From Chryseobacterium camelliae (GTDB lineage Bacteria; Bacteroidota; Bacteroidia; Flavobacteriales; Weeksellaceae), in assembly GCF_027920545.1 (NCBI RefSeq), contig NZ_CP115859.1:3007001-3071000 (forward strand): 64,000 nt of DNA, given 5' to 3'. The notes beneath the pieces were generated by a model, which saw only the letters and a list, made by a program, of their open reading frames with translations, was not told where the DNA came from and made no database searches. Positions 3,265 through 57,798 of the stretch are shown here, piece by piece. Positions within the stretch are counted from its first letter, which is position 1, and each line of letters opens with the position of its first letter. A program made the position numbers and the translations under genes.

Positions 3265-3303
3265 ATAAACCTCAATTAACCAGATTTGGATATTGAGGTT
3301 TAT
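3265..3303 (-). terminator. inverted repeat downstream of the T9SS gene, probable terminator
   Basis: Perfect 12-base arms ATAAACCTCAAT/ATTGAGGTTTAT around a 15-base loop, about 70 bases beyond the stop of the leftward T9SS gene. The following T-tract is weak, so termination is likely but not certain. Confidence 0.5.
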
Positions 3304-3372
3304 ATTTAAGATTAATGTTTAACTGAATAATTAAAATAATAGAATAAATTATTAAAAAAGAGTGAGTGTTAT

Positions 3373-5964
3373 TTAATGTTTTATAATTAATTGAATAGAT
3401 TTTCGTTCGTTATTTGAAAATACCACAACAAAATAGTTTCCGTTCAGTAATTCTATTGTTGAGAATGTTACAGTGTTGAGCCCTGATTCAAAGAGCTTAT
3501 TATTCTCGACCATTTTCACCATTTTACCGTTGATGTCGAATATTTGTATAGTTAAATTATTCGCTTTTAAAAGATCAAAATCCAATTTTGCAAAATCTGA
3601 AGAGGGATTTGGAGATATTTTAAAAGCCTCGGTCAAGTTTGAATTAGTAATATTATCAAGACTTGCTGGTTTATTTGCACTTTCATAAATAGGCTCTCCT
3701 TTCTCAATTGATTGATTAATTGTTACGTTGAAATTGCAAACACTTCCGTAGTTTTGATCTATATTGTTTATTAATGATTGAGAAACAGAATATACATAAT
3801 CTTGTACTACATCTGTTGGTTGCTTAAGCTCAAAAGAAAACTTTATTGCTCTATATTCTCCAGGGCTTAATGTAATATTATTTAATTGAGCATGATCAAA
3901 ATTTGTAATTCGAATTTCATGTTTATCATGATCGGAAATTTCTACACCTTCTCCTTCATTTCCCGCTTCTACCCATTTATTCCATAAAATATCATCCAAG
4001 TTGATTTTGATTCTTCCTATATTTTCGAAATTAGTTCCACTGCCTGAAATTTTATTAAGGTTTATATTGAAAACTTCTTCTTGTGACATATAGTTTCCGA
4101 TAAAAATTGATCCTCCAAATTGATAGTACATTCCCTCAAATATTCCTAGAGGAACCAAAGCCGTATTACGTGTTACAATATTGTTGTTATTTCTTACATT
4201 ATCTCTTAAAGTATTCATTGTGCTTGCAGGAATTTCTAAGTACATAGGATCGTTTGCGTCATCAATTCTTCCTAAAAAACAGATTACAGGATTACTAATA
4301 ATATTAGGATCTCCAAATAATGATGGTTCTACAGGTTGCCATTTTGCGTCAATAATAATTTCTTGTCCGGGTTGCAAAGGAGGAATAATAAATCCTGGAG
4401 TATTTGGATTAATGTTATCATATTCAGGAGCATTGCTATTAAAAACTGTGCTTCTCATACTAATTTCACCTCCTGCAGGGATACAATTATTAGTAATAGG
4501 TGTCATAATGCATTTTGATCCGTCCCACGAGTTAAGGGCAGTTGATGAAGGAGGTGACAGAGGAGTTACATTATTATCCCAAGATTCACCCGTTGCTCCC
4601 ATAGTCCAATATAATCGTACTCTACTTTCCTGAGATGCCTCACACCCGATATTCCTTATTCTGAATCTCATGACATTCCATTTGGCAGGATCAGAGCTAT
4701 AACCTGGGTTTTCATGGCTCAAACTTAATCCATTTGAAGATTTACGATTCCAGATGTCATTACTGCTCCAAATAGTTTCATTGCCTTGAGTGGGAACATA
4801 AGGTTCTTCCCCTGTATCAAAAAAATTGTCAAATGCTGCTAAGTCCCAACGATAATTTGCCGTAGAATAATTTTCAAAGTCAATTTGATCAGGTAATAAT
4901 CTTGTTAATGATGATTCTTCCATTGTAGGAATTACAAGATTAGAAACCTCGGTTACACTTTGGCTGGTGGGACTTATTGAAGCCAATTTATATCCTTGAA
5001 CAGTATTGGAAATAATGTTTTCTTTTGAAACATAGAAGTTGCCGTCAACTGCTTTTTCTATATACGAGTTATAATATGGTTCAGTATTAGAAATGAAATT
5101 TGAAGTGGGTAAAATACCTGCTGTATTTATAATGGCGATACCTTTATTGGCTACATTTGAATTGTTTTGTGCAATAAGAATTTTATTGTAGTTAATAAAT
5201 TCTATTCCATGTACTTTACCAACTCCTTGTATAAATGGAGTGCTATAATCTAAAAGATTTCCATTCTGATCTAATTTACAAATTTTTAATCCTGCATTGT
5301 CTCCCCAAGCTAGTTTCATATTTCCAGTGTTTGTATCTTCATACAACTCTACGTCGGAAGGATTATTTTCAGCATAGTTTATCAATGTTTGTTGGGGTAA
5401 TATCCCGTATTTATCAATTAAAAATCTTTCTACGGTATTTCCTCCTACTGCAAATAAAAATCGAGTTCTGTTTCTCCTTAGTTTGGATATAGCAAACGAT
5501 CTTTCCCCTCTATTTCCTATGAACTGAGGTTGGGAAATTGAAAATGAAGTACCGTTTACTGTTATTCTATTGTAGATAATACTATTTGTACAATTAATAC
5601 ATAGAGGATAAGAAGACATTGCAATGACATAAAATTCATTACAACTACCCGGAACATTTACTATAGCAGTTTCTTTTGACTCTGTATTTATGGGTACATA
5701 TAAATTTCCTTTGAAGACGTTGTTTTTGTCATATATGAGACCTCCCCTTACATAAAATAATAATTCTCCAGCAGAATCAAATGCAGCATTTGAAGAAGGA
5801 GAATTAGGACCACCGGGACCAATAGAATTTGTCATGATTTGTGGAGGTGCAGAGTTTGAGAAACCGAGTAAAGAATTTCCTACGATCCATTTGGGAGCTT
5901 GAGAATACAATGGGTTTGTAATGCTTACAGTCATTAGCAAAAAAAATACTTGAATTTTTTTCAT
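3373..5964 (-). CDS. large secreted protein with T9SS type A sorting domain
   Basis: An 863-residue exported protein. It starts with a classic signal peptide (MKKIQVFFLLMTVSITNPLYSQ) and ends in a type A T9SS C-terminal domain from about residue 780 (SPNPSSDFAKLDF, then FDINGKMVK, GLNTVTFS, LLNGNYFVVVFS). This domain directs cargo through the type IX secretion system to the cell surface. Residues 25-360 look like a repeat-rich beta-propeller region that begins with KWIVGNSLLGFSN and a GELLFYVRGGLIYD motif. The same layout is seen in the T9SS gene at 31619. The middle is beta-rich (CARDB/Ig-like inference). No enzymatic motif is visible. It is isolated, with a long AT-rich upstream region. Confidence 0.85.
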   Translation of the reverse strand: MKKIQVFFLLMTVSITNPLYSQAPKWIVGNSLLGFSNSAPPQIMTNSIGPGGPNSPSSNAAFDSAGELLFYVRGGLIYDKNNVFKGNLYVPINTESKETAIVNVPGSCNEFYVIAMSSYPLCINCTNSIIYNRITVNGTSFSISQPQFIGNRGERSFAISKLRRNRTRFLFAVGGNTVERFLIDKYGILPQQTLINYAENNPSDVELYEDTNTGNMKLAWGDNAGLKICKLDQNGNLLDYSTPFIQGVGKVHGIEFINYNKILIAQNNSNVANKGIAIINTAGILPTSNFISNTEPYYNSYIEKAVDGNFYVSKENIISNTVQGYKLASISPTSQSVTEVSNLVIPTMEESSLTRLLPDQIDFENYSTANYRWDLAAFDNFFDTGEEPYVPTQGNETIWSSNDIWNRKSSNGLSLSHENPGYSSDPAKWNVMRFRIRNIGCEASQESRVRLYWTMGATGESWDNNVTPLSPPSSTALNSWDGSKCIMTPITNNCIPAGGEISMRSTVFNSNAPEYDNINPNTPGFIIPPLQPGQEIIIDAKWQPVEPSLFGDPNIISNPVICFLGRIDDANDPMYLEIPASTMNTLRDNVRNNNNIVTRNTALVPLGIFEGMYYQFGGSIFIGNYMSQEEVFNINLNKISGSGTNFENIGRIKINLDDILWNKWVEAGNEGEGVEISDHDKHEIRITNFDHAQLNNITLSPGEYRAIKFSFELKQPTDVVQDYVYSVSQSLINNIDQNYGSVCNFNVTINQSIEKGEPIYESANKPASLDNITNSNLTEAFKISPNPSSDFAKLDFDLLKANNLTIQIFDINGKMVKMVENNKLFESGLNTVTFSTIELLNGNYFVVVFSNNERKSIQLIIKH

Positions 5965-6105
5965 AATAAATGAGATTTAGATTAATAGTTTTTGAAGGTG
6001 AATATTTTCATTTCAATTATACAAAAGTGATCATTCGTATGACTAAAATAGAAAAGGTTTATCTAGACATGAAGCTGAAACTAACAACTGTACTCATTTA
6101 ATTGA

Positions 6106-6144
6106 TAAGTGTGAAACAATTTCAATAAGTGTGAATAATTTCAA
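6106..6144. repeat. short tandem repeat left of the accessory island
   Basis: Two adjacent copies, period 19, of a unit close to ATAAGTGTGAAACAATTTC. A related GTGTGAAAACATTT lies near 6209. The repeat sits in the otherwise featureless 5965-6235 interval, directly beside the recombinase remnant. Confidence 0.5.
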
Positions 6145-6235
6145 CTAGTAAGGTTTAGTAATTTTCTAATATAAAAAGTAAAAGATTGAAATTTAACTTG
6201 AATTTTAGGTGTGAAAACATTTAATTGTATTAGAT

Positions 6236-6424
6236 ATGAGGATGGCTACTTCTGAAATAGAAAATAATAAAAGAAGTCGTAATGTAAGTTTGGGAATGAA
6301 AAAAGCAACACTTGGAGGAAGGTGGGTAAACAAGACCTATTTAGATACAGAAATAAAATTAATTCTGATGGACAGAAATATATATGCCCTTAAATTATTT
6401 AATTTTTGTTCATTCTTAAAGTAG
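6236..6424 (+). pseudogene. serine recombinase fragment
   Basis: A stretch of about 160 bases encodes ATSEIENNKRSRNVSLGMKKA, then LGGRWVNK. This aligns residue for residue with residues 127-157 of the intact recombinase at 11278 (ATSEVENDRRSRNVRLGMQK, then LEGRWINK). DNA similarity continues to about 6395, through the equivalent of the SDGKKYIAIYEPE segment, after the frame has slipped. Everything before the alpha-E region (catalytic Ser, resolvase core) and after residue 175 (DNA-binding domain, zinc ribbon) is missing. It is therefore the relic of a second, related recombinase and not a functional short gene. It marks the left side of the accessory island. Confidence 0.8.
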
Positions 6425-6585
6425 TCTGTTCTCTTTGGTTTTATAACTTAAATTTAGCTATCTTTATATTAGTATATTAGTTGCCCAAAGGACATCCTTA
6501 TTTTTGACTATAAAAAATCAAAGATTGATATAAGCGATTTTGCTTAATTAAGATAATATTTAATCGAATTCAAAAACGAATTGTA

Positions 6586-7143
6586 ATGAAATCCAATGAA
6601 TCTGATTCTTATTACGGCGAAAGTGAGGAAGAATATCTCGCTCGTAAAACAGAGGAGAGTAATGCCACAGGAGGACTTATGGCGGGGTTATTTGCGCTTC
6701 TATTATTCTGTGTGAAAATATTCGTTATTTATGGTGCATTTATTTATGCAGGCTTTTTATTAGCTAGGAAATTCTTAGGATCCGAATCAGACAAAGTAAA
6801 GATTTTGGGATATACAATTGCCTTTACATACCTTATTTTTTGTGTAATTTATTTTTTTAAAGGAACCATTATTGGGCTTCGTGCTAAAAATCGAAATATC
6901 TGGATTTTACCTTGGATAGTTTGTATATTGGTTTGCTGTCTTACCCCTGCATTTATTGTAAGTAGTTTTGCAGCTGCGCTATTCAGTCCGGAACATTATG
7001 ACAATATTTGGTATAAGATAATTAGTTGGGGATCCTTTATTATTTCGGCAGTATGCGTCTATAATATTTATGCGTTTAAGACACCTTCTGCCCCCAGGTT
7101 TGTATCTTGGAGCTACAGGTTAGGTGTAAAATTGACTTCATAA
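6586..7143 (+). CDS. hypothetical membrane protein in accessory island
   Basis: A 185-residue protein I do not recognise. Residues 1-28 are acidic and hydrophilic (SDSYYGESEEEYLARKTEES). Four hydrophobic segments follow at roughly 30-60, 72-92, 102-128 and 144-162, then a short basic tail. There is no signal peptide or lipobox and no catalytic motif. The ATG at 6586 follows an AT-rich leader. It lies between the recombinase fragment and the TOPRIM nuclease remnant, so it may be cargo of the island, but nothing links it functionally to either neighbour. Confidence 0.6.
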   Translation: MKSNESDSYYGESEEEYLARKTEESNATGGLMAGLFALLLFCVKIFVIYGAFIYAGFLLARKFLGSESDKVKILGYTIAFTYLIFCVIYFFKGTIIGLRAKNRNIWILPWIVCILVCCLTPAFIVSSFAAALFSPEHYDNIWYKIISWGSFIISAVCVYNIYAFKTPSAPRFVSWSYRLGVKLTS

Positions 7144-7170
7144 TCACGATATTGCTATTGGGCCTTCCTT

Positions 7171-7653
7171 AGATCTAATATTACCATTGTCCCAGCTGGG
7201 GGGATTGAGAAAGTAGCAACATTTATTTCTTTATTAGAGGCTCAAATTTAGAGATAGTTTGTCTGCTGAATTCTTATACGGATGCCAAAGGAAAGGCTAA
7301 AATGAATTCTTTGATAGCCGACAAAATTATTCATGGTAAGAAAGTGAGATTTTTCCATGATTTTTTGGATCGCATGCTACGGCCGACCTTGAAGATATGT
7401 TTACAAAAAAAGATTATTTGACTATATTCAATGCAGCTTTCCAAGAATAGCCAATATTTCAGATGCAGATCTGAATCCAGCGATAAATCAAATTATTATA
7501 CAAATTAATAACCATTTAAGTATCGCTGGATTTAATCATTATCGCCGGCTAATCGGCTAACCAAAATGGCTGTCGATGCTTTTTTTTGATCCAGTGACAT
7601 TAGAAAATTTTGAAAAAGTTTTTACAGAAATTAATAACCTCTTTGATAAATAG
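7171..7653 (+). pseudogene. OLD-family nuclease (TOPRIM domain) remnant with multiple frameshifts
   Basis: Piecing together three frames gives a continuous protein. It starts RSNITIVPAGGIEKVATFIS, then NLEIVCLLNSYTDAKGKAKM, then IIHGKKVRFFHDF, then ADLEDMFTKKDYLTIFNAAF, and ends VTLENFEKVFTEINNLFDK and a stop at 7651-7653. The PAGG, LLDS-like (here LLNS) and DLEDMF segments are typical of the TOPRIM half of OLD/AAA ATP-dependent nucleases, found in stand-alone OLD proteins and GajA-like defence nucleases. The ATPase half is absent. At least three shifts are visible, one of them an extra T in an eight-T run near 7580. It is a dead gene on the strand opposite to, and convergent with, the Argonaute gene. 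Confidence 0.75.
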
Positions 7654-7793
7654 TCGAAACAATATTATTTTTTTTTAAAAGTATATATTTAGGTTATTTG
7701 AGTTGCTAGCCGGGAATTACAGCTGGCAATATATTTATGATTTCTGCTTGGAAATGATTTAGTAACTTCTTTTTCTGTAACGATGCTGATATT

Positions 7794-10700
7794 CTAAATA
7801 AACAATCTATAATCATAACTTCGGCCCTCGTATCTGGCCAATAGTTTTCCGATTCGTGCTATCTGGTTGGAGGAATCGATTGTCGAGGGAAGTTTAGAAT
7901 ATAAGTCCAGTGAATTCCAGTTCATTTTTGTCAGACCAAGGATTTCCGTGGCGATCAGGTCAATGTTTGATTCTCCATAATGTTTTGTGATCTTGATGGG
8001 AGCAGGAATACTTCTTCCGCCGAGATAAAACTTATAATTCTGCTGTTTAACTGAAGGGACGATACCATGCGTCCATAAAAGGGCTGTCTTTTTATTTGTT
8101 ACAATACAGGTGCCCCTTGAAATGGGAAACCTGTCGACCTGAAGATTATTCTGGTAAACACTCATTGCGACAAACTTAGCGTCAATATCGTAGTTTATTT
8201 CGATCAGGTCGATTTTCTTTATTCCAGCTTGATTAAGGCTTGCTCTAATACCATTTATTTCATCTGTAGTGAATCTCGTCCTCTTATGAATTACTACTCT
8301 TTCGGGAAGTGTATCGAGGGATTGGTAAAAAAGTTCCCGTATGGATACCCCAAATTGGAAGGCATCTTTATAAGAAAGATAGGGGTTATTTTGTTTGTCC
8401 AAAACATAATTATCAATTTTTGAAAGTCTATACTTCAGCCCCTGGCCATTGGAATCATATATATGGCTGCATCCGATGACGATCTCCTGTTTGTCCTTTA
8501 TTCTGGAAACGCTATAACCAATTCCTGCATATGCAGTTTTCCTTTCTTGACTATTTAGAATCCATGGTGTTCTCAGTGATTTGACATAGAAAGATAATGA
8601 AAGCCACCAGTAGATTTGGCATTTCAGTTTATCATCTAATGTATCTTCCCTAATAAGCTGAGTGGATATGCCAATGGAAGCAGCAAAAGCTTTAATATTG
8701 TCATGGAGATCAAAGCTTTCGGTATCATTGATGTAGCTTTCAAAAAGCTGCCATTCCTCAGGAATAAATATTACAACTGAACTTGAACCTTGGATAGCTG
8801 ATATTTTCTGGATGCGGTCCTTTATCATATGCGCCAGTGCAACTGCATTTTCATGTGTCTGCTTTGAATTGTCACCAACAAAGTTGATGTCCATCCATGA
8901 TGAACTGCCCTGGGCAGTCGGAATATTTATGGGGATGTTGTAGGCTGCGAAAAATCCGGGATAATCGATGAGGTAGTCCGTATTAATTCCTTGGGTTGGA
9001 TGTTTGGAATTCAAACCCGAAAGAAAGCTAAAAAATCGCTGTGCGTATTTTGAGCCACAGATCACCGCTAAATTTATCTCGTTGGAATTTATAACGCCAT
9101 TAAGATTAACATCATAAGGACGGTTATTGATCAGGCCGCGCATAGGGTGGAAGTCCCTAAAATCATTGTTACTGGAGGTATTTTTAAAGATTAGTTGTGG
9201 CTCTAGAAACTGGACTCCACGAAATTGGGTCTGTTTTCCGTTGTAGTTCTGTGGAGTATAAGAACGGTACTTACTATCCAGTACATCAATTTCGCCATAC
9301 GCTGTATTGGCACTTATCTGGAACTCAAAACCTGTTCCGGATTTTGTGGGATATTCGAATATAAGTTTTCTATGACCAAACAGAACACCGGTCCAGAAAT
9401 GCAGTTCTTTGTCATATTTATCGTTATATAGCTTTTCAAGGATGCCCTTACTTACTTGCTGTTTCAAGGTCTTGGGAACTTCTGTCGGGGACTCCAAGTG
9501 TATTGTCGGAGCCAAGGCCAAATAGGCATATCTTTTATCAAAATAAAGCGAAAGGTACAGAGCGTTATGAACGGATACATCACCAATCCTGCTTTTGGCG
9601 TCTTTCAGCCATATTCTGTCCTTAAAGTTGGATCGCAGCTCTTTGGTCGCACAAAAGTGCTTTGCAACAGCCATTAACATCAGATTTTTAAAAGCGGTAA
9701 CATTCGCAATGTCGTGGTTGGAAATCTGTTCACGAACAATTTTGGATTGTAGATAAGGTCTAAAAACGGAGCTGATTTCACTAAGGGATCCAAGAGCGAA
9801 TACTTTGCCCTTAAACGGTACTGCCGATATAGTTGTTCTTTCAGTGAGTTCACGGAGAAAAGCCCAAGGTCTGTTGTGTCCGTAATCTACTTGAAACTGG
9901 AAGACTTCCTTAGGAAATACGATGGGATGGAGGTTGCTTTTAATGTATTTGTTAGTCTTGCCGAAATTCAGCTTAAAATCAGTGCTCACCGTTTCGTCCT
10001 TATCTGAGGCTTCTAGTACCTGCTGAATTTGATCGGATATACTCTTGTTATCCTCAAATATTGTCTTTGCAAGATGTATTAATGTCTTATCAAAGCCATC
10101 TGTCGAAATATAGTAGGCTTCTCTGCCCGAGACTCTCGCATGCCGAATCAGCTCCTCTACCTCTTTATTAATATTGTCACCGTATCCGCACCAGTAGAGG
10201 CGTCCGGTTCCCCTTTTCGAGAAAGCAGATTTAAGGGCATTCATCAACGAGACGTCACGTCCGCTATATCCGGCAACAATAAGATTTTTGTCCGTATGAT
10301 AGTTTCCTAAATGTTCTTTGAAAATTTCATCCTGAGAATCTAGTTCCTTATCTGTATTTTTTAATGTCGTATATTTATAGTCACCGTGTAAAGCAATACA
10401 AAGCAGTTCTTTTGTACTTTGATTTCTAAAGATCCGATCAGCATTATCTAGTGTTATTTCAATCGGTGTAAGATTATTTTGATGACCAGCCCTTACCATA
10501 AGGCCATCAAAATTGGTTGTCCATACTGATTTAACGATTCCCTGTCCAGCTAAAAAACAAAGTAATTTGTAGCCAATATATGGGTTTTTGTCTTCAATCA
10601 GACTTAAAAAATACTTCCTTCTATCCTCAGCTATAGGATATGCTTTTTCTGCATAATATGAATATTCTTCGTTGGTGTCCAGATCTGGAAATCCACCGTG

Positions 10701-10946
10701 GTTATCAAGCCATTTTTGGATGCTTTGGCGGACACCTTCATTCCTATGGTTCTTATAATATTCAGAAGCATTCAAATTCTTAGAGATGTAAATGTCCCTT
10801 TTCCATTCCCAAATACAATCATATGCGGATTGTATGCCAGAACTTATAGAGGCACCTGCACCAAGTAGGAATGAATGCGGAACATCAATATTACGTTTTA
10901 TTGAACGCAGAAATGCATCGTAATCTAAGTATAAATTTTCTTCCAT
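7794..10946 (-). CDS. single-chain SIR2-APAZ-Argonaute (fused short pAgo) defence protein
   Basis: A 1050-residue protein. Residues 1-300 form a SIR2 NAD-binding domain with GAGASISSG at 29-37, TTNFD at 143-147 (Asn145), LHGD at 186-189 (His187) and GYSGRD at 226-231. Residues about 330-590 are the APAZ-like region. Residues about 598-800 are MID, opening FHPMRGLINNRPYDV and closing with a Lys775/Gln777/Lys789 pattern before PW. PIWI runs from 805 to 1050 and ends YDYRLFI. The usual catalytic carboxylates are absent: AGIGYS (807-812) has Gly where the first Asp should be, and VVIHKRTRF (884-892) lacks the second. It should therefore bind guide and target without cleaving. Known relatives (short pAgo clade with SIR2-APAZ) deplete NAD when they sense invader DNA. 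The gene lies alone, beside a serine recombinase. Confidence 0.9.
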   Translation of the reverse strand: MEENLYLDYDAFLRSIKRNIDVPHSFLLGAGASISSGIQSAYDCIWEWKRDIYISKNLNASEYYKNHRNEGVRQSIQKWLDNHGGFPDLDTNEEYSYYAEKAYPIAEDRRKYFLSLIEDKNPYIGYKLLCFLAGQGIVKSVWTTNFDGLMVRAGHQNNLTPIEITLDNADRIFRNQSTKELLCIALHGDYKYTTLKNTDKELDSQDEIFKEHLGNYHTDKNLIVAGYSGRDVSLMNALKSAFSKRGTGRLYWCGYGDNINKEVEELIRHARVSGREAYYISTDGFDKTLIHLAKTIFEDNKSISDQIQQVLEASDKDETVSTDFKLNFGKTNKYIKSNLHPIVFPKEVFQFQVDYGHNRPWAFLRELTERTTISAVPFKGKVFALGSLSEISSVFRPYLQSKIVREQISNHDIANVTAFKNLMLMAVAKHFCATKELRSNFKDRIWLKDAKSRIGDVSVHNALYLSLYFDKRYAYLALAPTIHLESPTEVPKTLKQQVSKGILEKLYNDKYDKELHFWTGVLFGHRKLIFEYPTKSGTGFEFQISANTAYGEIDVLDSKYRSYTPQNYNGKQTQFRGVQFLEPQLIFKNTSSNNDFRDFHPMRGLINNRPYDVNLNGVINSNEINLAVICGSKYAQRFFSFLSGLNSKHPTQGINTDYLIDYPGFFAAYNIPINIPTAQGSSSWMDINFVGDNSKQTHENAVALAHMIKDRIQKISAIQGSSSVVIFIPEEWQLFESYINDTESFDLHDNIKAFAASIGISTQLIREDTLDDKLKCQIYWWLSLSFYVKSLRTPWILNSQERKTAYAGIGYSVSRIKDKQEIVIGCSHIYDSNGQGLKYRLSKIDNYVLDKQNNPYLSYKDAFQFGVSIRELFYQSLDTLPERVVIHKRTRFTTDEINGIRASLNQAGIKKIDLIEINYDIDAKFVAMSVYQNNLQVDRFPISRGTCIVTNKKTALLWTHGIVPSVKQQNYKFYLGGRSIPAPIKITKHYGESNIDLIATEILGLTKMNWNSLDLYSKLPSTIDSSNQIARIGKLLARYEGRSYDYRLFI

Positions 10947-11277
10947 TAATTTATTAAAGGTGTAATAATCCAGAGGTAATACAAGGCTGTTTTGCTTTGC
11001 TCACTTTAAGTTATATAAATATACCATAATTCTTCATCATCAGAGAGTGTTCAATCCCATTAATGTGTTGATAAGATTGTTGCTCCCTCTTTTTAATCGA
11101 TAAAGATATGTCTGAAAATTTTTAAAAAAAATATGGTTTTCCGCATTATGTAGTTAGTACTTTTTAAAAAGCCATTTTGTAAAAACATGTATAAAGACTC
11201 GTCAAATAAATTGTTCTGATTTTCGTTTAATATATAGGGGTTTTTAAATATAATAAAGATTATAATAATACTACGCC
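10947..11277. other. divergent intergenic region between the Argonaute and recombinase genes
   Basis: These 331 AT-rich bases hold the 5' leaders of both divergent genes. I see no coding frame, no convincing TTTG/TANNTTTG promoter pair and no long inverted repeat. Shared regulation of the two genes is possible but not shown. Confidence 0.5.
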
Positions 11278-12855
11278 ATGCAAGCCGTTTATCTGTACAT
11301 ACGAGTCAGTACTGATGAACAGGCTGTAAAAGGATATTCCCAACGCAGCCAGTTGGACCGACTTGTGCTTTATTGTAAAGATCACAATCTCATTGTTACC
11401 AAAACCATTTTCGAAGACTATTCGGCGAAAACATTCAACCGACCAGAATGGAACAAACTGTTCGCTGAACTTAAGCTCACTAAAAATCAATCTTCACTTA
11501 TTCTCTTTACTTATTGGGATCGATTCAGCCGCAATATTATGGACGCTTATAAGATGTTAGAAAGATTGCAGAGTATGAAAGTCTCCATTCAGGCAATTGA
11601 ACAGCAGTTAGACTTCTCAATCCCGGAAAGTAAAATTATGTTGGCAATGTATTGGGCTACTTCTGAAGTAGAAAACGATAGAAGAAGTCGTAACGTGCGT
11701 TTGGGAATGCAAAAAGCAAGACTAGAAGGAAGATGGATCAATAAAGCTCCTCTAGGATATAGAAATAAAATCACATCTGATGGAAAAAAATATATAGCCA
11801 TCTATGAGCCGGAAGCATATGTTATCCGTGAAGCTTTCACAGCTATAGTAAGACAAAATAAATACTGTTTAAATGACATATACAAAGAAGCGGTATCAAA
11901 TGGGCTTAATTGCAGCAGAAGTGCTTTTTACCGATTGGTAAGAAATCCTATTTATTGCGGTAAAATAAAAATTCCGGCATTTGAAAATAAACCAGAAAAA
12001 ATTGTTGAAGGTGCTCATGAGCGTGTTATACCTGTCATTTTATTTGATCAGGTTCAAAGAATAATAAAAGACACGGACTTAAACCATCCTAAGAAATTAA
12101 CTTCAAGAAAGATAGCTAATGAAAATTTAATTTTTAGAGGTATCCTACAATGTCCTAATTGTGGAAAGACGCTGACAGGAAGTGGCTCACAAGGCCACAT
12201 TAAAAAATATTACTACTACCACTGTATGGGGCATTGTTCATACCGGATAAGAGCTGACCTTTTCAATTTGAGTTTTCTTTCATTTCTTAAGCAGAATAGA
12301 GTGGTAGAACCATTTTTAGAGCTTGCAGATAGTATTTCAAAAGAAATTTACAGTGATGGACATCATGACTATATACAGAAAAAAGAGGAAATAAAGAAAG
12401 AAATGGAAAAGTTGATTGATAGGGGATTCAATGCACAAAAGCTATTTTCAAATGGAAACATTGACTATGATGATTATATACTAATAAGAAATCGTTGCCA
12501 GGAATCTTTAAAAGATAATACTGATAAATTGAGACAGCAGGCTTTAAAAATAGTGGCAGAAAAACATACAGAGAAAGGAACAGGTTATATAATTAACCAC
12601 TTAGGGGAGTTTTATGAAAATTCAGATACTACAACCAAACAGAGAATTATCAGGTTATGTTTTCCGGAGAAAGTAAAAGTAATAGAAGGGAATATTAATA
12701 AAATGCTATCAGAAACTGTTAAGGCCATATTTGGATTAACTGCTATGGAATCGAAAATCAAAGAAATCCATGGTCAGCAGATAGAGCAAAGAATAGGTGA
12801 TTTTTTTAAAGAATTATATTTTTTAGGCTATGAACAAAACTTGAAAAATATCTAA
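11278..12855 (+). CDS. large serine recombinase (site-specific integrase)
   Basis: A 525-residue integrase with the full three-part layout. Residues 1-150 form the resolvase catalytic core: YIRVSTDEQ with nucleophile Ser11, plus WDRFSRN at 80-86. Residues 155-275 form the recombinase domain. A zinc beta-ribbon follows, with Cys292, Cys295, Cys316 and Cys320. Residues about 370-430 look coiled-coil (KKEEIKKEMEKL). Such enzymes integrate or excise mobile DNA at short att sites without needing tRNA targets. It is intact and sits between the Argonaute gene and a tRNA operon, so it is the likely mover of the island. A fragment of a relative lies at 6236. Confidence 0.92.
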   Translation: MQAVYLYIRVSTDEQAVKGYSQRSQLDRLVLYCKDHNLIVTKTIFEDYSAKTFNRPEWNKLFAELKLTKNQSSLILFTYWDRFSRNIMDAYKMLERLQSMKVSIQAIEQQLDFSIPESKIMLAMYWATSEVENDRRSRNVRLGMQKARLEGRWINKAPLGYRNKITSDGKKYIAIYEPEAYVIREAFTAIVRQNKYCLNDIYKEAVSNGLNCSRSAFYRLVRNPIYCGKIKIPAFENKPEKIVEGAHERVIPVILFDQVQRIIKDTDLNHPKKLTSRKIANENLIFRGILQCPNCGKTLTGSGSQGHIKKYYYYHCMGHCSYRIRADLFNLSFLSFLKQNRVVEPFLELADSISKEIYSDGHHDYIQKKEEIKKEMEKLIDRGFNAQKLFSNGNIDYDDYILIRNRCQESLKDNTDKLRQQALKIVAEKHTEKGTGYIINHLGEFYENSDTTTKQRIIRLCFPEKVKVIEGNINKMLSETVKAIFGLTAMESKIKEIHGQQIEQRIGDFFKELYFLGYEQNLKNI

Positions 12856-12980
12856 AAATAAATATATTGAACATTAGGTTTCATAATATACATTTAAATA
12901 GAATTAATTGTCATAATTTCTTTAAAAATAAATTGGAATAATGTTGATTATTAGTATTTTATTTCGTGTTTTGTTTTTAA

Positions 12981-13026
12981 AAAAGTTCGAAACCTTTCTG
13001 AATGACTTGACAGGTTTCGAACTTTT
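12981..13026. repeat. 15-base perfect inverted repeat downstream of the recombinase
   Basis: Arms AAAAGTTCGAAACCT and AGGTTTCGAACTTTT are exact reverse complements around a 16-base spacer. A related half-site GAAAGTTCGAATCCT follows near 13086. It lies 125 bases after the recombinase stop in a 445-base gene-free stretch (12856-13300). There is no clean T-tract, so it could be a terminator, an att or protein-binding site, or a relic of tRNA T-arm-like sequence. The rest of the interval is AT-rich with nothing else recognisable. Confidence 0.6.
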
Positions 13027-13300
13027 GCCTCCAAGGAACATATGATTTGTGTTAAATGGTTGTTTTTTCACTGTTTTAATTTTGTGTAGAAAGTTCGAAT
13101 CCTGTTTGGATCATTGTGTTTTTAAAGAGTCTTAGCTTCAAAACAGACTGAAAAAGATAAAATATTTGTTTTCTTTAAGAGATATTTTGTTTTAGAAAAT
13201 AAAGAAAAACGGGGTAAAATACATTAAATAGGCTGATTGATGGGTATTTATAAATAAAATGACACCATTTGGCCTAAATTGTCCTAATGGTGTCATTAAG

Positions 13301-13374
13301 TGAGCGCGAAAGGATTCGAACCTTTGACCGTCTGCTTAGAAGGCAGATGCTCTATCCAGCTGAGCTACGCACCC
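13301..13374 (-). tRNA. tRNA-Arg (TCT)
   Basis: Cloverleaf on the minus strand. The acceptor GGGTGCG pairs with CGCGCTC, the anticodon stem TCTGC/GCAGA encloses loop CTTCTAA (anticodon TCT), and the T-arm holds GGTTCGAATCC. It is last in a Ser-Pro-Arg array, and its 3' end faces the accessory island. Confidence 0.95.
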
Positions 13375-57399: not shown

Positions 57400-57473
57400 G
57401 ATCCGGTAGTTCAGCTGGTTAGAATGCCGCCCTGTCACGGCGGAGGTCGCGGGTTCGAGTCCCGTCCGGATCG
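57400..57473 (+). tRNA. tRNA-Asp (GTC), copy 1
   Basis: Acceptor GATCCGG/CCGGATC, anticodon stem CCGCC/GGCGG with loop CTGTCAC (anticodon GTC), T-arm GGGTTCGAGTCCC. It is the first of four identical 74-base copies. Confidence 0.96.
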
Positions 57474-57505
57474 CAAAAGTTTTTTTTCAATTTCTTTAAA
57501 AAATT

Positions 57506-57579
57506 GATCCGGTAGTTCAGCTGGTTAGAATGCCGCCCTGTCACGGCGGAGGTCGCGGGTTCGAGTCCCGTCCGGATCG
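57506..57579 (+). tRNA. tRNA-Asp (GTC), copy 2
   Basis: Identical to copy 1. The spacer before it (32 bases) is T-rich and carries CAATTTCTTTAAAAAATT, which recurs in all the spacers. Confidence 0.96.
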
Positions 57580-57609
57580 CAGAAGTTTTCTCAATTTCTT
57601 TAAAAAATT

Positions 57610-57683
57610 GATCCGGTAGTTCAGCTGGTTAGAATGCCGCCCTGTCACGGCGGAGGTCGCGGGTTCGAGTCCCGTCCGGATCG
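57610..57683 (+). tRNA. tRNA-Asp (GTC), copy 3
   Basis: Identical to copy 1. The spacer before it is 30 bases and differs from the others by a short T/C indel. Confidence 0.96.
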
Positions 57684-57715
57684 CAGAAGTTTTCTTTCAA
57701 TTTCTTTAAAAAATT

Positions 57716-57789
57716 GATCCGGTAGTTCAGCTGGTTAGAATGCCGCCCTGTCACGGCGGAGGTCGCGGGTTCGAGTCCCGTCCGGATCG
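57716..57789 (+). tRNA. tRNA-Asp (GTC), copy 4
   Basis: Identical to copy 1. It is the last of the array and is followed by a terminator. Confidence 0.96.
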
Positions 57790-57798
57790 CAAAAATTT

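Follow-up and report, generated by a model that had tools for sequence, protein, structure and literature searches.

The window analysed here is the whole 64,000-nucleotide stretch of Chryseobacterium camelliae DNA (NZ_CP115859.1, positions 3,007,001–3,071,000). Its minus strand carries, at 7794–10946, the coding sequence of a 1050-residue fused SIR2-APAZ-MID-PIWI short prokaryotic Argonaute (pAgo), assigned to clade S1A by its intact frame, profile and PDB sequence matches, predicted fold, and tree position. All domains lie on one polypeptide, in a single uninterrupted open reading frame of 1050 codons. The SIR2 NADase-type domain comprises about residues 1–300 (10047–10946, minus strand, as for all domains), with Asn145 at codon 10512–10514 and His187 at codon 10386–10388. 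It is followed by the APAZ domain (about residues 323–552; 9291–9980), a joint (about residues 553–570; 9237–9290), the MID domain (about residues 571–790; 8577–9236), and the PIWI domain (about residues 791–1050; 7797–8576). A 331-bp spacer (10947–11277), which from about 11175 on is part of the recombinase module, separates the pAgo gene from a divergent plus-strand gene for a large serine recombinase of 525 residues (11278–12855; Pfam Resolvase, Recombinase, and Zn_ribbon). Further to the right lie the 45-bp right end of a cassette (13259–13303) and the minus-strand tRNA-Arg (tct) gene used as insertion site (13300–13374). We put at roughly 87% the probability that the pAgo gene encodes a short Argonaute in one chain, belonging to the known fused SIR2-APAZ type and predicted to act as a one-gene defence through guide loading, recognition of invader DNA, and SIR2-driven destruction of nicotinamide adenine dinucleotide (NAD), and that the gene is cargo beside the recombinase.

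The PADLOC model PDLC02384 "pAgo", which is a model of the fused form, covers the protein end to end (residues 4–1050, 1528 bits), and the Aga_SIR2 models of PADLOC match it with up to 682 bits. Pfam SIR2_2 matches in the SIR2 domain (2.6e-9). The PDB sequence search gave matches to both subunits of the SIR2-APAZ/short pAgo system (SPARSA) of Geobacter sulfurreducens (GsSPARSA); the alignment with GsSir2 comprises residues 26–304. In the predicted fold, residues 4–552 match GsSir2-APAZ and residues 571–1050 match GsAgo, and both the fold and the PADLOC models place an APAZ domain between SIR2 and MID. The preliminary description of this DNA had read a single-chain SIR2-APAZ-MID-PIWI protein with a degenerate PIWI domain from the letters, and had named structure prediction as a check. 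Sequence, profile, predicted fold, and tree agree on this architecture, and the two halves of the model match the two SPARSA subunits. The 3,437,155-base genome contains a single match to the fused pAgo, with no second one at E ≤ 0.001. A split SPARSA, in the form of a two-gene operon, was considered and ruled out by the single frame and the lack of a second genomic match.

Residues were compared in an alignment of 69 rows, hand-picked for spread (the window protein, 63 proteins from a list of 240, and five of 31 genomic loci); seven of the rows are N-terminally short. On the PDB sequence alignment, Asn145 aligns with N142 of GsSir2 and His187 with H186. Both residues are invariant in all 62 rows that reach these positions, as are the HGD and SGRD motifs in the 62–63 rows that extend to them. 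In GsSPARSA, alanine at N142 or H186 abolished NAD loss (PMC10781750). In the MID domain, H748, K752, Q763, and K789 are invariant in all 69 rows. Their spacing fits a 5'-phosphate motif of the HK type; short pAgos are of the HK/RK type with respect to this motif (PMC6299218). In the PIWI domain, the catalytic acid positions 1 and 3 are occupied by G810 and R889 in all 69 rows. As judged from the alignment, this supports a PIWI domain with no canonical DEDX cleavage tetrad, in which at least two catalytic positions are replaced; the placement concerns two of the four positions, with the Glu position left out. The C-terminal residue (Ile1050 in the window protein) is Ile in 64 rows and Met in five, always in the same last column and with no extension. 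In the TIR-APAZ/pAgo system (SPARTA), the C-terminal residue helps to hold the metal at the guide 5'-phosphate (PMC10474274).

The structural borders of the joint are residues 552 and 571, and at this place the first gene of the split systems stops and the second one starts. The stretch 552–574 is 23 residues long in 61 of the 69 rows. In three split plasmid pairs, SIR2-APAZ proteins of 547–585 residues and pAgos of 469–483 residues add up to 1016–1068 residues, against 1050 in the fused protein. On these lengths the fusion is judged to be direct, via a short joint of nearly fixed length at the place where split relatives have a gene boundary.

The family is a large one, with 1143 homologues at E ≤ 1e-3. 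The 120 of these that were listed are all full-length (1048–1090 residues; 66–96% identity at 99–100% coverage); among 120 matches of another protein listing, many begin at an internal Met and look like fragments. Within the genus, the fused pAgo was found in six of 98 genomes, the window genome included, in addition to one distant pAgo. Across the phylum, the pAgo half was matched in 19 of 395 genomes, three of them with a frame of more than 1000 codons. No plasmid or phage record had a match covering more than 80% of the protein at a single place (121 of 72,556 plasmid and four of 50,697 phage records matched at all), and IMG/VR, in a search that detects close relatives only, gave two pattern matches and no relative. 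A 7.3-kb record named "Bacteriophage sp." (MT837260.1) holds at 5443–7287 a relative of residues 1–611 with 47% identity, reaching near the record end; this record may be a bacterial fragment.

A tree was computed for the pAgo half with a quick method (64 rows). In this tree, 37 fused rows and nine solo metagenome rows form one group (97), apart from eight split rows (96), and the rows nearest to the window pAgo are all fused. Four of the eight split rows are plasmid pairs with an adjoining SIR2-APAZ gene, and the split label was checked for these four. The phylogeny proposed earlier as a check places the window protein with the fused forms and apart from the split rows. The solo metagenome pAgos are 465–500 residues long, and five of them (P0226, P0239, P0198, P0219, and P0227; 465–496 residues) were noted individually as grouping with the fused clade. 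They could be members that have split again, or gene calls that were cut short. The fused architecture is known: most SIR2-APAZ proteins of group Ia carry MID-PIWI on one chain (PMC6299218), the same architecture is described in PMC10810196, and it is named clade S1A in PMC11156904. The window gene is an ordinary member of these known fused SIR2-APAZ short pAgos (APAZ group Ia; clade S1A), which have been in print since at least 2018 (PMC6299218).

Several points weigh against this picture. The PDB sequence match to the SIR2-APAZ chain stops at residue 304, which leaves the APAZ domain to the fold and the PADLOC models. The predicted model has a confidence of less than 50 at residues 188–197, adjoining His187. 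The placement of G810 and R889 leans on general catalytic motifs and on long pAgos of Bacteroidota that themselves are without the first Asp, and these are therefore a poor positive control for the catalytic positions. The nine solo pAgo rows fall within the fused group, so that the label "fused" requires five changes on the tree; the program also flags long branches, which makes the placement of L035 and the deepest rows unsure. Finally, two contacts of GsSPARSA are not kept. Counted on the PDB sequence alignment, Asp772 stands at the place of Arg190, the GsAgo residue in contact with guide base 2 (PMC10474274), and Thr165, beside an alignment gap, at that of GsSir2 His163, which has been proposed as the partner of H186 (PMC10781750). 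This means that the relay to the SIR2 pocket may differ from that of GsSPARSA.

The loss of these two contacts also bears on an alternative in which the chain is a guide-loaded sensor, but its SIR2 domain acts on another substrate or signal without depleting NAD, or is triggered by something other than guide–target pairing. Other defence proteins with SIR2 domains do have other triggers: a phage tail tube protein for DSR2 and a cyclic ADP-ribose signal for ThsA (PMC10781750). Against this, neither the catalytic residues nor the HGD and SGRD motifs vary in any of the 62–63 rows that reach them, and both the fold and the domain order are those of SPARSA; we regard such a sensor as unlikely.

For the NAD-depleting single-chain defence, a mechanism can be proposed by analogy with the split GsSPARSA, from which the NADase action, the guide use, and the phage defence of the window protein are all inferred. 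A small 5'-phosphorylated RNA guide would be loaded, and APAZ together with MID-PIWI would form the channel for guide and target. Invading DNA would be the target, bound without being cut. Formation of the guide/target duplex would be relayed to the SIR2 pocket, and the SIR2 domain would then hydrolyse NAD, so that growth of the infected cell stops. The serine recombinase probably stands outside this immune mechanism; it is the recombinase, with its cassette ending at tRNA-Arg, that probably moved the pAgo gene to this site.

Neighbouring genes were counted in 31 loci with a fused frame of more than 900 residues, 30 of full length and one (L019) of 925 residues. Broken or cut genes (L029–L031), two loci of about 4.4 kb (L034 and L035), and repeats (L055, L088, L090, and L092) were left out. 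The flank is shorter than 5 kb on at least one side in six loci (L003, L004, L006, L013, L015, and L023) and complete on both sides in the other 25, and near-copies (L003/L089 and L018/L028) mean that the 31 loci are not 31 independent events. When the 307 open reading frames within 5 kb were clustered, no cluster occurred in more than five of the 31 loci, which upholds the earlier statement that the protein has no separate partner. The commonest neighbour families, in five loci each, are the recombinase and one other family. Four loci (L005, L007, L009, and L021) have a common upstream gene run of 331, about 210–230, 835, about 131, and 101 residues. Their fused genes probably ride another kind of element, and the run may resemble a conjugative element.

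Five of the 31 loci have a related recombinase no more than 5 kb away: it is the divergent next gene in the window and in C. pennae, lies downstream in L017 and 2.4 kb off in L025, and is broken in L089. Only the window and C. pennae, whose gene is 96% identical, have the divergent pair. The C. pennae DNA matches the window at 91% identity over 7793–11164 and at 92% over 11167–13316, but the spacer is 567 bp there against 331 bp in the window (about 240 bp longer). In genome G012, two recombinase copies without a pAgo retain the stretch from 11175 onward. The preliminary description had the pAgo share its upstream leader with an integrase. The adjacency is real; the "shared leader", as read from these sequences, consists of two abutting modules, the upstream region of the pAgo and that of the recombinase, and does not look like a conserved functional unit. 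It would be very unlikely, for the same reasons, that the two genes work as one, for example with the pAgo guarding or regulating the cassette. Their being kept together in divergent orientation at 91–92% DNA identity would fit such a unit, but the arrangement occurs in two of 31 fused loci only, the spacer length differs, the recombinase upstream stretch is kept without a pAgo, and 10 of the 13 close recombinase copies adjoin other genes (one of the 13 being outside this count). TAnnTTTG is a promoter of the Bacteroidota type, and none was found in the 331-bp spacer on either strand. The repeats in the spacer are short A/T-rich ones only. Rfam at gathering scores found three tRNAs between 5900 and 13700, and nothing else. 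Elsewhere in the window, at 57400–57790, four tRNA-Asp (gtc) genes stand in tandem.

The 45-bp right end consists of a hairpin followed by GTGA, bases that at the same time form the 3' end of tRNA-Arg. Read on the tRNA strand, the hairpin has a folding energy of -18.1 kcal/mol (z -3.98, computed over all 76 bases of the stretch), and a U-rich run comes after it. It might terminate the tRNA-Arg transcript. With up to three mismatches, the 45-base end was found at 23 places in 21 of 173 genus genomes, and a backwards control gave none. Its surroundings were examined at 18 of these places (the window, L074, L075, L088, L132–L137, and L139–L146). It is directly followed by tRNA-Arg in 12 of them, by a tRNA-like stretch uncalled by ARAGORN in one (L133), and by ACYTGRMAGGATTATC in five (L074:8010, L088:6183, L132:474, L139:12657, and L144:490). 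The last sequence is apparently the left end of a next cassette, which suggests tandem insertions; in G012, one such cassette would be about 30 kb long. Among 12 relatives without the 45-base end (L076–L087), ten have other sequences at the tRNA edge, mostly hairpin-like by eye, and two have no match to the edge pattern. The recombinase itself was found at 83% identity or more in 12 of the 173 genus genomes, again with the window genome, as 13 copies, one of them broken. The 45-base end lies at most 450 bp from the recombinase in 11 of these copies, the exceptions being those of G512 and G530.

On the left side, neighbouring cassettes carry the motif AAGGATTATCTTCGAA at their start; a search of the window that allowed up to two mismatches did not find it. 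The DNA at 3300–6200, with a gene of the type IX secretion system type, has no long match in 14 other genomes (short weak ones in four), and no border was defined by it. A relic of a second recombinase copy lies on the plus strand at 6223–6384. It consists of two stretches of 77% and 85% DNA identity and contains internal stops; the part of the intact recombinase to which it corresponds lies 5.4 kb further right. The adjoining DNA at 6416–7159, with an open reading frame of 185 residues (6586–7143), has 91.7% DNA identity to L082:4377–5122, which lies at the same tRNA site of genome G397 and adjoins a helicase gene there. Together, the relic and this match suggest that the left part of the window cassette has a separate history. 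Between the 185-residue frame and the pAgo stop lies coding debris (7144–7793), for which a six-frame comparison with the collected loci gave, among the matches listed, only its own copies. With such remains just to its left, the pAgo gene might be taken for a decaying passenger without function. Its frame of 1050 codons is intact, its catalytic and binding residues are kept, and an intact copy of 96% identity is found in another genome of the genus; decay is accordingly the least probable of the alternatives, and we hardly credit it.

The cargo was scanned for some of the genes near the recombinase copies, not for every gene of each. A SIR2-pAgo stands beside the recombinase in the window and in G444, where the genes after it encode HsdM, HsdS, and an AAA ATPase that has PtuA-like scores. 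Hachiman genes HamA and HamB are found in G456 and G426, the latter also with HerA and DUF4297. A gene set containing MksE, which is condensin-like, accompanies the first copy of G012 and the copy of G520; PADLOC gave no call for it, and we infer it to be Wadjet-like. G510 has a PDC-S39 candidate gene and a helicase. An RND efflux system is found at the second copy of G012, and frames equal in length to its genes, by comparison of lengths only, are found in G095 and G512. The genes scanned in G531 (four) and G412 (three) encode ordinary enzymes with no defence hit. Over 12 of the 13 recombinase copies (all but that of G530), systems recognised by PADLOC stand beside four, candidates beside three, and other genes beside five. 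The cassette therefore carries more than defence, which counts against the narrow wording "defence cassette".

These observations lead to a wider proposal, for which we see even odds. The SIR2-pAgo would be one of several interchangeable cargoes of undescribed serine-recombinase cassettes of Chryseobacterium, which integrate precisely at the tRNA-Arg (tct) 3' end, put their own hairpin in place of the tRNA terminator, stack in tandem, and shuttle immune systems (SIR2-pAgo, Hachiman, and the condensin type) and other genes between genomes. The family is called undescribed because a literature search for it gave no relevant paper by title. A single-chain Argonaute would suit such a vehicle, since one gene holds the whole response. 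If the proposal is true, the tRNA-Arg 3' end site, the 45-base end, and the recombinase are handles for finding more defence cargo in Chryseobacterium. The protein, for its part, could help to decide whether short pAgos of the SIR2 type fire singly or as tetramers, as a partnerless chain with a near-fixed joint makes the stoichiometry trivial. For the single-unit view, no change of oligomeric state is reported in PMC10474274, and a water-channel mechanism is proposed for a SIR2-type short pAgo (PMC10781750). For the tetramer view, PDB entry 8y80 is titled as a tetrameric SPARSA complex.

Compared with known systems, the window protein shares its domains, fold, and Asn-His dyad with the split GsSir2/Ago SPARSA of Geobacter sulfurreducens (8in8, 8jkz, 8jl0, 8k87, and 8y80). 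The differences are that GsSPARSA is encoded by two genes and the window protein by one, that identity in structural alignments is 22–26%, and that the Arg190 and His163 contacts are not kept. The split SIR2-APAZ/pAgo pairs of alphaproteobacterial plasmids (CP031596, NZ_CP021915, NZ_CP126014, and NZ_CP084700) have the same domain order, but a stop and a new start at the joint, and 26–33% identity to the fused pAgo. SPARTA and the nuclease-APAZ/pAgo system (SPARDA) have effector domains other than SIR2. As for the fused form, no solved structure was found, since the PDB sequence search at E ≤ 1 matched no chain longer than 706 residues, and a literature search that reached few subscription papers gave no biochemical work on a fused SIR2-pAgo. 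Another fused protein is PgSir2-Ago from Paraburkholderia graminis. Between the window protein and the fused pAgos of clade S1A no essential difference was found: one-chain architecture, HK-type MID pocket, and degenerate PIWI are the same. What may be novel is rather the vehicle, a recombinase cassette at tRNA-Arg; the window member is set apart by adjoining the end of such a cassette.

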